Below, one piece after another: positions 5,670 through 41,934 of a stretch of DNA of 52,631 bases (its first letter is position 1; each line of letters begins with the position of its first letter). The DNA is taken from contig CAMCBW010000038.1 in assembly GCA_945873105.1 (NCBI GenBank), positions 1 through 52,631 of the forward strand, in the 5' to 3' direction. Made by a program: the position numbers and the translations under genes. The notes below the pieces were generated by a model. It was not told the DNA's origin. It saw only the letters and a program-made list of their open reading frames with translations, and searched no databases. Source of the stretch: Tangfeifania diversioriginum. Lineage in GTDB: Bacteria; Bacteroidota; Bacteroidia; Bacteroidales; Prolixibacteraceae.

Positions 5670-6791
5670 TTACAAATCACGCAGCGCGACCGCCTGGTAA
5701 ATGATTCCCTGGTAGGGGCTAATGGGGCCGGCTTCGTACAAACAGCCAATGTCTCCGTTGGGCAATTGTGTCAGATCCCCGTAGGCAGCGGGACCGGGGA
5801 AAAGCACGATTGATTTGGCCCAGGTTTTTCCCTGGTCAAAACTAATCCGAAGGGTCATATTTTTTCTTTTGTTCTCATCTGCAGGATTCAAAAAGAGCAG
5901 TCTCTGCTGGTTTCGCTTTTGACAGGCATAGGTCAGCAGACTACCCTGGCAGATTGGCTCTACCAATGTCTTGTCTGTGTAAATGTCACTCCAGGTGGTA
6001 CCTCCATCCTTGCTGACAGATACCTTTCTGCATTTTTCTGCTCGATTGTAATTCCGCATATTCAGCATCAGTTTTTTGGCTGATAATTCAGCCACCGTGC
6101 ATTCATTTACCTGATCCTGAGGAGTGGAACCTCCCAGTTTCCAGGTTTTACCATGATCGTCCGAATAGATAATATGGGAGAAATATTTGTTCGTCACTGA
6201 TTCAATGTGGTCGCAGGGAACGATCAGCCTTCCGGAAAACCGTCCTTTCTGCAACTGTATTCCGTGGCAGGGACCCGTTGCATACCAGGTCCAGTCGGGC
6301 TTCTTAACATCAGAAGTAATCTCTTTTGCCTTGGTCCAGCTCAGTCCATTATCGGCAGAGGTGAGGACAAAAATTCGACGGGTATCCAGACTGGTTCCAT
6401 TGATGATCTGTTTTTCGTGGTCTGTTCCCAGGTTCCAGGTGGAGACCAGCACAATGTTTCCCGACTCACGATCCACGATTGGTGAGGGATTTCCGCAAGT
6501 ATTGGCTGCATCATCCCATACCACCATCAGTTTTGACCAGCTCTTTCCTTCGTCAGAGGATCGTTTTACCACCAGATCGATGTCACCGGAATCGCCGCAT
6601 CCGGTTTTCCGTGCTTCGGCAAAGGCCAACAGCGTACCTGATGGGGTAGTTACGATCGCGGGGATCCTGAAACAGGCATATTCCGCTTCTCCTGCTGTAT
6701 AAAGGGGTTTAAGATCCTGCGAGAAGAGGGGCAAATTGAGCAGCATTAGCAGGGTCAGGGTAGCTGCAAATGGGAATTTATTCTGTTTCAT
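5670..6791 (-). CDS. Exo-alpha-sialidase, GH33 (secreted)
   Basis: Retaining sialidase that removes terminal sialic acid; 373 residues. The start at 6791 gives a signal peptide (MKQNKFPFAATLTLLMLLNLPLFSQ); a longer frame upstream to 6869 has no signal character. Visible GH33 features are the FRIP motif just after the mature N-terminus (first Arg of the triad), the Arg-Asp region in ARKTGCGDSGDIDL, and five Asp-box repeats (SSDEGKSW, SADNGLSW, SDDHGKTW, SKDGGTTW, SFDQGKTW) marking the beta-propeller blades. Two further Arg residues lie in NMRNYNRAEKCRK, and the nucleophile region GDIGCLYEAG carries Tyr-Glu. It is about the length of a single-domain bacterial sialidase. No sialic-acid catabolism genes are adjacent, so it may act alone or serve scavenging. 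Confidence 0.9.
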   Translation of the reverse strand: MKQNKFPFAATLTLLMLLNLPLFSQDLKPLYTAGEAEYACFRIPAIVTTPSGTLLAFAEARKTGCGDSGDIDLVVKRSSDEGKSWSKLMVVWDDAANTCGNPSPIVDRESGNIVLVSTWNLGTDHEKQIINGTSLDTRRIFVLTSADNGLSWTKAKEITSDVKKPDWTWYATGPCHGIQLQKGRFSGRLIVPCDHIESVTNKYFSHIIYSDDHGKTWKLGGSTPQDQVNECTVAELSAKKLMLNMRNYNRAEKCRKVSVSKDGGTTWSDIYTDKTLVEPICQGSLLTYACQKRNQQRLLFLNPADENKRKNMTLRISFDQGKTWAKSIVLFPGPAAYGDLTQLPNGDIGCLYEAGPISPYQGIIYQAVALRDL

Positions 6792-7378: not shown

Positions 7379-7390
7379 TCAAGCGTTTCA

Positions 7391-7645
7391 GAGACTGTTT
7401 AAATTTATAACACAGAGAATATCTAACTATTTATCGAAAAGAGAGAGTAAATAGAAATTTCTGCTATTTTGAATTTTCATTAGAGAAACCCCGGATTTTC
7501 ACAGAGTTGGAAAATCGCAAGCGATTTTCTCTCTGTGTACCTCATTTCTTCTCTTGTAAATTTTGCACAAAGCGACAATTTCAATGACATGATCAGTTTC
7601 ATCAAGGAGTCATAAATACTCTGTGTAATAATTTTAAACAGCTTC
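7391..7645. mobile_element. MITE, family A, copy 1 (255 bp)
   Basis: Non-coding element bounded by imperfect terminal inverted repeats of about 28 bp: left end GAGACTGTTTAAATTTATAA, right end on the other strand GAAGCTGTTTAAAATTATTA. It is flanked by a 3-bp direct repeat TCA (7388-7390 and 7646-7648). The middle holds a perfect inverted repeat GAAAATCGC/GCGATTTTC with a 2-nt spacer. The whole element recurs in inverted orientation at 40491-40787 with very high identity outside two insertions. No transposase is encoded, so it would have to be moved in trans. A TNA-type 3-bp duplication is known from some IS5-family subgroups; the link is inference. It lies between convergent genes. Confidence 0.8.
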
Positions 7646-7668
7646 TCAGAAATGGTTAGATAAATTCG

Positions 7669-39825: not shown

Positions 39826-40434
39826 TTAGAGCCCTTCCAAGATTATTTGAACCAATATTGCGGGCAGATAGGCAGCTAGTTTTAGCTTCAGGGTTTTTAA
39901 AGCCCGGGTCATGTTCGCTTCTACTGATTTAACGGAAATCTCCAGTTCTTTGGCAATCTCATTGTTTTTTTTCCCTTCGATCCGGCTTAACCTGAACACG
40001 AGTCTGCATTTTTCGGGTAATTCCTCAATCGCCTGATTGATCAATTTCTCCAATTCCATCAGTTCAAGTTGATCAAAATCAAATGATTCCAATATTTCTC
40101 GGTTCAACTCGGCCTCTTTCGCCTGAAGTTGCCGGTCACGGTGTCTGTTGATTATTTTCTGGTGCTTGAGGTAGTTTAGGCAATCGGTCTTTGCAGCAGT
40201 ATAAAGAAAGGAGTGTATTCCATTTACCGTTTCAAGCTGAGCCCTGTTTAACCATAATTTGACAAAAGCCTCCTGGGCTAGACTTTGTGACTGGTCCTTG
40301 TCCTCAATGAATTGCTGACAAAAACCAACAATTCGTTTGTAGTCGATTTTAAAAAGATGTTCGAAAGCGGACTCATTGCCCGCTTTCAACTGAGATAGGA
40401 AGAAATCATTGTAGGGAGAATAGGAGGCTTCCAT
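39826..40434 (-). CDS. ECF-type RNA polymerase sigma-70 factor
   Basis: 202-residue ECF sigma factor of the PUL-associated Bacteroidota group. Region 2 is visible in AFEHLFKIDYKRIVGFCQQF and SLAQEAFVKLWLNR, region 4 in ELPEKCRLVFRLSRIEGKKNNEIAKELEISVKSVEANMTRAL (helix-turn-helix; split here into known motif pieces ELPEKCR and EISVKSVEANM). It directs polymerase to the SusC promoter when released from FecR. It is the first gene of the PUL, and a MITE lies 56 bases upstream of its ATG. Confidence 0.95.
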   Translation of the reverse strand: MEASYSPYNDFFLSQLKAGNESAFEHLFKIDYKRIVGFCQQFIEDKDQSQSLAQEAFVKLWLNRAQLETVNGIHSFLYTAAKTDCLNYLKHQKIINRHRDRQLQAKEAELNREILESFDFDQLELMELEKLINQAIEELPEKCRLVFRLSRIEGKKNNEIAKELEISVKSVEANMTRALKTLKLKLAAYLPAILVQIILEGL

Positions 40435-40514
40435 TCAGCTATTTCAATTGTAAACTACAAATATCGGTATTTAATGAGAACGAAGACTCAGAAGCTGTTT
40501 AAAATTATTACACA

Positions 40515-40535
40515 ACTTGTCCCGATTCATTGGGA
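40515..40535. repeat. 21-nt hairpin insertion inside the MITE, unit 1
   Basis: ACTTGTCCCGATTCATTGGGA, inserted after CACA relative to copy 1. Arms TCCCGA and TTGGGA pair with one wobble over a 4-nt loop. Same length and site rule as unit 2. Confidence 0.75.
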
Positions 40536-40623
40536 GAATATTTATGACTTCTTGATAAAACTGATCATGTCTTTGAAATTGTCGTTTTGTGCAAAATTTA
40601 CAAGAGAAAAAATGAGGCACACA

Positions 40624-40644
40624 ACTTGTCCCGATATTTCGGGA
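40624..40644. repeat. 21-nt hairpin insertion inside the MITE, unit 2
   Basis: Starts ACTTGTCCCGAT and ends TTTCGGGA; arms TCCCGA and TCGGGA are a perfect 6-bp stem with loop TATT. Absent from copy 1, where CACA runs directly into GAGAGAAAATC. Confidence 0.75.
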
Positions 40645-40878
40645 GAGAGAAAATCGCTTGTGATTTTCTCTCTCTGTGAAAATCCGGGGTTTCTCTAATG
40701 AAAATTCAAAATAGCAGAAATTTCTATTTGCTCTCTGGTTTCGATAAATAGTTAGCTATTCTCTGTGTTATAAATTTAAACAGTCTCTCAATTTTCAAAC
40801 AAAATAGAGATCAAAATGATTGAGGTATTGGCATTTTTATTGCGTTGACCAATCTATTTTCATGAATGGATTCATCAT

Positions 40879-40917
40879 AAAAAAAGGAGCACAAGGTCTA
40901 CTTGCACTCCTTTTTTA
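40879..40917 (-). terminator. Intrinsic terminator of the rhodanese-cytochrome operon
   Basis: On the minus strand AAAAAAGGAGTGCAAG pairs with CTTGTGCTCCTTTTTT through a 5-nt loop with two G-U pairs, ending in seven T. It lies 16 bases past the rhodanese stop codon. The plus-strand reading also ends in T, so it may work both ways. Confidence 0.8.
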
Positions 40918-40932
40918 TCAGATCTGTTTTAT

Positions 40933-41934
40933 TTAGTTTAAAACATAATCATAACCCATGATCTCAGAAGCTTTAAAAATGGTCATGGCATTGGTAACCA
41001 TTGTGTCATACATCATGGCATTGGTTCCGAACAGGATAGATTTGGCATCGTATCCAAGCAATCTAAGATAAGCTACCAGAAAGGCACTTGTTTGTCCGGT
41101 GTAACAGTATACAGCAATGGTCTTTCCCACAGGAAGTGTCTTCAGATCAGGTGCCAGTTTGATGGTCTCTTTTGGGGTGTACTGCATGGCTCCAGGTATG
41201 TGTCCAATGGCATAGTGTGCAGTAGTCCAGTAGTTTAGAATTGAGTAGTTGCCAAGATTTCCAAAGACTGTTGCATTGGTTACACTGGCAGGAGTGAATC
41301 CTTCCACGAGCAAGGCAGCAATTCTCGCTTCGAGAATATCTTTCCCAGTTGATTTTCCAGTGCTGAGAACCGGTAATTCACCTTTTGCACCTTTGGGAGA
41401 ATCTGTTTTTACCATTTGTGAGGCATAGGCATTGCCGCTGGCAATAGCCGTATTCCATTTACCTGCGAAGAAACTGTTCCAGGAGCACATTCCCCACTTC
41501 AGGGAATAGACTTTGTCGTAACCCATCAGGCGGAGCAAAGAGGCGCCAAAACCTGCTGTTTGACCGGTATAACAAACAATGGCTACTTTGTCATAATTGG
41601 TCATGGTCAATCCTTTGACATGGCTGAGTAAATCACTGAATACAACGTTTTTGGCATTGGCGATATGGCCTAATGCAAAATCAGCTGCAGAGCGAATATC
41701 AATGATATAGACCCTGTTGGTTGCCATCAGGGTTTTTACCTCTGAAGCTCCAATGATGGTAGGCATGTCTGTATTGACGAAATCCTTTTTAAGTGGTGAT
41801 TGAGCAGATTCAAGGTATTGAACCAAAACTTCAGATTCATTGATCTTCACTTCTGCTTCTTCTTTTTCGCAACTTGCAAAGATTACGATGAAGAGCAAGA
41901 TTAACACAGGAAAGAAAAATTTGATTTTTTTCAT
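40933..41934 (-). CDS. Lipoprotein with two rhodanese domains
   Basis: 333-residue envelope lipoprotein (lipobox FASC, Cys22). It has two rhodanese domains, about 60-160 and 210-325, each with a cysteine active loop: VCYTGQTAG and YCYTGQTSA. Both keep the catalytic Cys, so both may carry persulfide; the usual Arg of CRxGxR loops is absent. Rhodaneses move sulfane sulfur; here the location outside the cytoplasm and the next gene, a multiheme cytochrome starting the same operon 39 bases upstream, suggest a role in electron or sulfur transfer on the envelope surface. No other sulfur genes are nearby. Confidence 0.88.
   Translation of the reverse strand: MKKIKFFFPVLILLFIVIFASCEKEEAEVKINESEVLVQYLESAQSPLKKDFVNTDMPTIIGASEVKTLMATNRVYIIDIRSAADFALGHIANAKNVVFSDLLSHVKGLTMTNYDKVAIVCYTGQTAGFGASLLRLMGYDKVYSLKWGMCSWNSFFAGKWNTAIASGNAYASQMVKTDSPKGAKGELPVLSTGKSTGKDILEARIAALLVEGFTPASVTNATVFGNLGNYSILNYWTTAHYAIGHIPGAMQYTPKETIKLAPDLKTLPVGKTIAVYCYTGQTSAFLVAYLRLLGYDAKSILFGTNAMMYDTMVTNAMTIFKASEIMGYDYVLN

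Follow-up and report, generated by a model that had tools for sequence, protein, structure and literature searches.

Two 21-nt hairpin units in a Tangfeifania MITE copy as probable site-specific insertions of a REP-like element at CAC^A

Within the window, that is, the whole stretch of 52,631 nucleotides that was analysed, one MITE copy contains two 21-nt hairpin units that are missing from another copy. We consider it rather likely that a REP-like hairpin was inserted here in a site-specific manner, perhaps by a candidate Y1 HUH enzyme acting in trans. Each of the two units would have arrived by its own insertion of a non-coding, REP-like hairpin element, in which a single variable base is followed by the tag ACTTG (RCYTG in its wider form) and by a stem, TCCCGA/TCGGG(A), closed by a short loop. 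The monomer would enter at CAC^A with neither duplication nor loss of the target, its orientation being set by the target strand. Filled and empty sites, a target motif, a reversed unit, repeated gain and spread among Bacteroidota were all demonstrated at the level of sequence comparison. Precise and repeated entry of a 21-nt monomer into DNA, at a readable target, is indicated by the exact filled/empty pairs. The unit as substrate and CAC^A as target are both testable, and could help to find the enzyme that lies behind orphan palindromes.

The host repeat with both hairpin units inside (copy 2) occupies positions 40487..40791 (+) and copy 1 positions 7387..7649 (-). The first-pass annotation had described copy 2 as longer by two 21-base units placed where copy 1 reads CACAGAG, and the alignment of the two copies indeed has just two gaps, of 21 nt each, at these points. 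Unit 1, in the outer site S1, spans 40515..40535 (+, ACTTGTCCCGATTCATTGGGA), and unit 2, in the inner site S2, spans 40624..40644 (+, ACTTGTCCCGATATTTCGGGA); in copy 1 the empty S1 and S2 are found at the junctions 7622/7623 and 7534/7535, respectively. The TCCCGA/TCGGGA hairpin that had been attributed to each unit was present as a perfect six-pair stem in unit 2 (-5.8 kcal/mol, z -3.39), but unit 1 carries TTGGGA, making one of its six stem pairs a G-T pair, and its predicted fold was no better than that of shuffled sequence (-2.7 kcal/mol, z -0.87). The perfect-stem pattern matched once in the window (unit 2) against 0.00 matches expected by chance, and ACTTGTCCCGA with at most one mismatch matched three times against 0.70 expected, a number reached by 4 of 100 shuffles. 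As for the position claimed directly after CACA, both units do lie at CACAGAG, but the repeated A leaves one base of uncertainty in their junction, which relatives with a different first base position at CAC^A. The re-registered insertions are 40514-40534 at CAC^AGA and 40623-40643 at CAC^AGAG.

Two further sites of copy 2 are empty and read CTCTGTG, the reverse of CACAGAG: S3 (40672..40678, -), which is filled in copy L023 of the same genome, and S4 (40761..40767, -), within the right terminal inverted repeat. Between 40645 and 40678 there is a nested hairpin formed by an inner GAGAGAG and its inverted copy CTCTCTC, and the MITE thus looks like hairpins within hairpins. Comparison of 40300-41000 with known RNA families returned eight matches at E up to 1, every one far under the gathering score.

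The 5.36-Mb genome contains 62 pieces matching the MITE. Site occupancy was counted in 42 loci, comprising 40 MITE loci plus L301 and L303, both scoring far above shuffled sequence, while L300 and L302, which hold no whole MITE, stayed outside the counts. S1 was filled in two loci (the window copy and the divergent L303) and empty in 28, with 7 unreadable. S2 was filled in three (the window copy, L013 and L032), empty in 33 and unreadable in 1, with two of the empty sites cut by a contig end and one (L303) degenerate. S3 was filled in L023 and empty in 38 (3 unreadable), and S4 was filled in none and empty in 37 (5 unreadable). The unit of L023 is in the opposite orientation because the CACAGAG motif is reversed at S3. 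In five further copies (L028, L037, L040, L292 and the degenerate L301) S1 and S2 are joined via a single unit, all five of these fused copies carrying one. The lone right terminal repeat L302 has a unit after its CACA.

In the empty copy 1, the terminal inverted repeats match each other, CACAGAG included. On this ground the empty state of the MITE looks ancestral. We have built a tree with 39 MITE copies from four genomes of the genus, leaving out pieces that covered fewer than 200 consensus columns and keeping 255 of 407 columns, the sparse ones (e.g. the units) being dropped. The ten filled copies were scattered over the tree, several with empty sisters (support of 97/90 for the filled/empty pair L057/L080), and nine state changes were needed; with 19 of the 36 inner branches open, this figure is a guide and not a measured number of events. 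The loops of the filled copies read TTCA, TATT, TACT, TTCT and TGAA, which is suggestive of several insertion events. As judged from these comparisons, the window units are insertions and not losses from copy 1.

When S1 and S2 are both filled, as they are in the window copy, the MITE contains two near-identical direct repeats of ~28 nt. The sequences suggest that recombination between the S1 and S2 units would delete the stretch between them and originate the fused form seen five times, with the window copy being the expected intermediate toward fused copies.

We have then considered the unit, of the form N-ACTTGTCCCGA-loop-TCGGG at CAC^A, outside the MITE. The proposal that a very small palindromic element is dispersed and nests within other repeats held well: besides other MITE copies, the unit was found in arrays of CACAGAG-like words within the genus and in unrelated repeats of other genera, with empty counterparts. 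Scanning for ACTTGTCCCGA-N2-8-TCGGGA located it in 40 of 393 genomes of the order (32 of 207 genera), the reversed control pattern giving two matches in total in these 393 genomes. Named genomes contained at least 120 stretches; among the 120 matches listed, 107 were from Bacteroidota and 12 from eight other phyla, with 1 unassigned. The unit loci L085 (G010, same family) and L235 (Prolixibacteraceae) had the same flanks. The TCCCGA stem was present in 189 of the 221 RCYTG-tailed hairpins of the fetched loci, which had been chosen by that stem, and a variant in L188 (TCTCGT/ACGAGA) has other letters with pairing retained. No second unit was found within 200 bp for 117 of 122 units.

Tolerance of the 21-nt length in coding sequence, also put forward initially, was not supported by the data. 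Units inside ORFs of at least 150 aa numbered 16 of 119, against 74% expected from ORF coverage, and unit lengths ranged from 19 to 25 nt (82/119 being multiples of 3). A coding role for the length was thus rejected.

Some other features were seen in the surveyed loci. CACAGAG-like words in arrays with a ~10-base period recur around the units of the genus (L082-L103; G002, G007). There are also tRNA-like sequences with apparent palindromes in L128 (~16-140, -) and L232 (~5980-6030, -), with CCTGCCTGCCGGCAGGCAGG at the would-be D-loop position and a TCCCGA hairpin further along; ARAGORN detected no tRNA in L128 and, in L232, only the neighbouring tRNA-Val (5872-5948). A search of literature largely outside subscription papers returned no description of this unit, and the string matches listed were unrelated.

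Exact filled/empty pairs were obtained in this and in other genomes. In HyVt-532, TGCACG-ACTTG in the filled L251 corresponds to TGCACA-AAACC in the empty copies in L239, from the same genome; L206 displayed the same kind of change with T as the variable base. These readings imply that the inserted 21 nt start with the variable base and end at TCGGG, with CAC^A as the site. The best pairs had 59 of 60 (L248) and 54 of 60 (L251/L239) identical flank bases. When the two flanks of each unit were joined, an empty site was matched by 22 of 33 queries, a set mostly but not wholly from the same genus, and by 24 of 150 others. Part of these 24 matches reflect chance or an overlap with the unit, the overlaps being few (L207, L179). 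With the junction shifted by two bases, 1-3 empty matches per set were left. Of two cruder controls, the shift by five bases gave 9/33 and 6/150 matches and the swapping of flanks, in which same-genus flanks are alike, 14/33 and 6/150.

The target motif was derived from 119 de-duplicated units, units lying closer than 20-30 bases to a locus end and those with duplicate flanks having been removed, as for the ORF count. C was present at position -4 in 70 units, A at -3 in 78 and C at -2 in 59, and the left flank was near background from -6 outward. What precedes the unit is usually CAC followed by a variable base, and not in every case CACA. The CAC motif was retained in the 105 units remaining once CACAGAG contexts were removed. 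The right flank was not neutral, with deviations at +1 (few C) and +3 (G in 49/119) that were also seen in the 105 units, and the target may thus exceed four bases. The final A of the unit was set by the search pattern; in the small number of TG-tailed hairpins found without this constraint, 15 of 17 have it, and a pair formed with the first stem base could account for it.

Regarding the enzyme, the unit would be processed while single-stranded, as a hairpin, by a Y1-type HUH enzyme whose gene lies elsewhere and which would cut after CAC and join the unit. No unit was detected within ~1.5 kb of the Y1-transposase genes in 79 sampled Y1 loci, and Y1 genes were consequently rejected as cis partners. 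These loci are a sample and not every match, weak matches and contig ends included; 36 were taken from seven genomes belonging to the genus and family, and a search open to E 1 supplied 14 of the other 43. A lone TCGGGACAA occurs in one sampled locus (L159), and L281 has a unit and a Y1 frame 3.5 kb apart. A Y1 match was present in 38 of 40 unit-bearing genomes vs 26 of 32 chosen relatives without the unit, a comparison that is hardly informative. The best Y1 match was no better than E 5.7e-5 in G286, which has 18 units; G334 had one only at E 0.003 and G194 none below E 0.8. Given the 0/79 linkage, the presence of Y1 matches both with and without the unit and the weak matches of G286, the Y1 step is our best guess, by analogy, and not a result. 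The genome studied has six Y1 matches, several of which have their own palindromes next to them, distinct from the unit. In L104-L108, several of its Y1 genes adjoin different palindromes such as gtcccgtagggac, gctccggaggagc and gccctgaaagggc, and by eye these are apparent REPtrons.

The cut could instead be made at the CTTG by the hairpin, by another class of hairpin-acting enzyme (a Y2/IS91-like or rolling-circle HUH protein, or a tyrosine integrase). CTTG is part of some HUH nick sites and here it abuts the stem, and the sampled loci linked no Y1 gene to the unit; however, the resemblance to HUH nick sites comprises four bases, and we regard such an enzyme as unlikely.

It is likewise improbable, in our assessment, that no dedicated enzyme was involved and that a single old insertion spread as CACAGAG arrays and MITEs exchanged sequence through gene conversion or homologous recombination. 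The 11 ACTTGTCCCGA places of this genome, some degenerate, are all in the MITE or at a CACA/GAG-like site, CACAGAG-like arrays are possible donors, and inter-unit recombination explains the five fused copies. Nevertheless, the flank in common is only ~7 bp, the loops differ between sites within one copy, and CAC is still preferred both by the 105 units that lie outside CACAGAG contexts and in unrelated repeats. Precise loss of ancestral MITE parts from most copies by slippage on the hairpin has a very low probability: replication can delete hairpins and losses could in principle account for the state changes on the tree, but 33 of the 36 readable unfused S2 sites are empty, the empty state keeps both terminal inverted repeats matching, the unit is present in unrelated repeats and genomes, L023 has it at a reversed site in opposite orientation, and free-standing units in other genera, for which empty counterparts exist, largely refute it, the other copies pointing to gain.

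A wider and more doubtful proposal is advanced tentatively. RCYTG-tagged hairpins could form a superfamily spread over Bacteroidota and made up of the smallest units that insert site-specifically, with ~21-nt monomers going into single-stranded CAC^A, the tag (TGT vs ACA) serving as guide, movement by an enzyme not yet linked to any REP, and different stems with a common tag and target. One case, L245, suggests that several stems share tag and target. There, a CACAGAG-like array that includes an ACTTG unit also has, at ~5795-5860, a CCTGCC-stem hairpin with a GCCTG tail, placed at CAC^..AGAG. The CCTGCC-stem palindrome was present in 1 of 13 genomes, is anecdotal only and was rejected as a common partner.

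The unit works like a REP or an IS200/IS605 end, yet it is not filed as a member of the described families because their defining tags, stem lengths or gene linkage were not found in it. IS200/IS605 elements are not known to duplicate their target on insertion, and their ends (IS608, ISDra2) resemble the unit in this respect and in having a conserved short left target, represented here by CAC^A. Those elements have hairpins at both ends plus tnpA or tnpB, whereas the unit is a single 21-nt hairpin with no gene, which must serve as both ends, something that the known elements do not do. The available text of PMC6006769 describes a conserved left target tetranucleotide and hairpin-based recognition for IS200/IS605, and we infer a similar recognition for the unit. 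Rickettsia palindromic elements are also small palindromes dispersed at many places, but many of them are in frame inside genes, as far as PMC3733652 recounts, and the unit mostly avoids ORFs.

GTAG REPs and REPINs with their RAYT (Y1) share with the unit a short hairpin with a 5' tag at its foot (PMC3116915 and PMC6006769, in their available parts), and Y1 genes with their own palindromes occur in this genome. Their tag is GTAG or GTGG, replaced in the unit by RCYTG, and their RAYT gene is flanked by the palindrome, an arrangement that the unit did not display in the 79 sampled Y1 loci. Single REPs are presented in the accessible portion of PMC3116915 as defunct remnants of doublets, in contrast to the unit, which would insert as a monomer.

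CGTC-tagged REPs (Di Nocera et al. 2013, PMC3733652) are described, in the available part of that source, as intergenic palindromes of 20-40 bp with a short unpaired tag, with Bacteroidetes among their hosts, TGTC-tagged variants, no linked transposase gene and some families inside other palindromes. The unit resembles them in being a short tagged intergenic palindrome of Bacteroidetes that is nested in other palindromes. As portrayed there, they have an unpaired CGTC (or TGTC, CCTC) end tag, a stem of 8-9 bp starting with A-T pairs and a CCA tail, and are mostly head-to-head dimers. The unit has CTTG by its stem (TGTC appears only when two stem bases are counted in), a 6-bp TCCCGA/TCGGGA stem starting with T-A and C-G and no CCA consensus after it, is single in 117 of 122 cases, and differs further in its CAC^A target with empty sites. 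Within the scope of that source, CGTC REPs are nonetheless the nearest known kind, being, like the unit (0/79 sampled Y1 loci), palindromes without a linked transposase.
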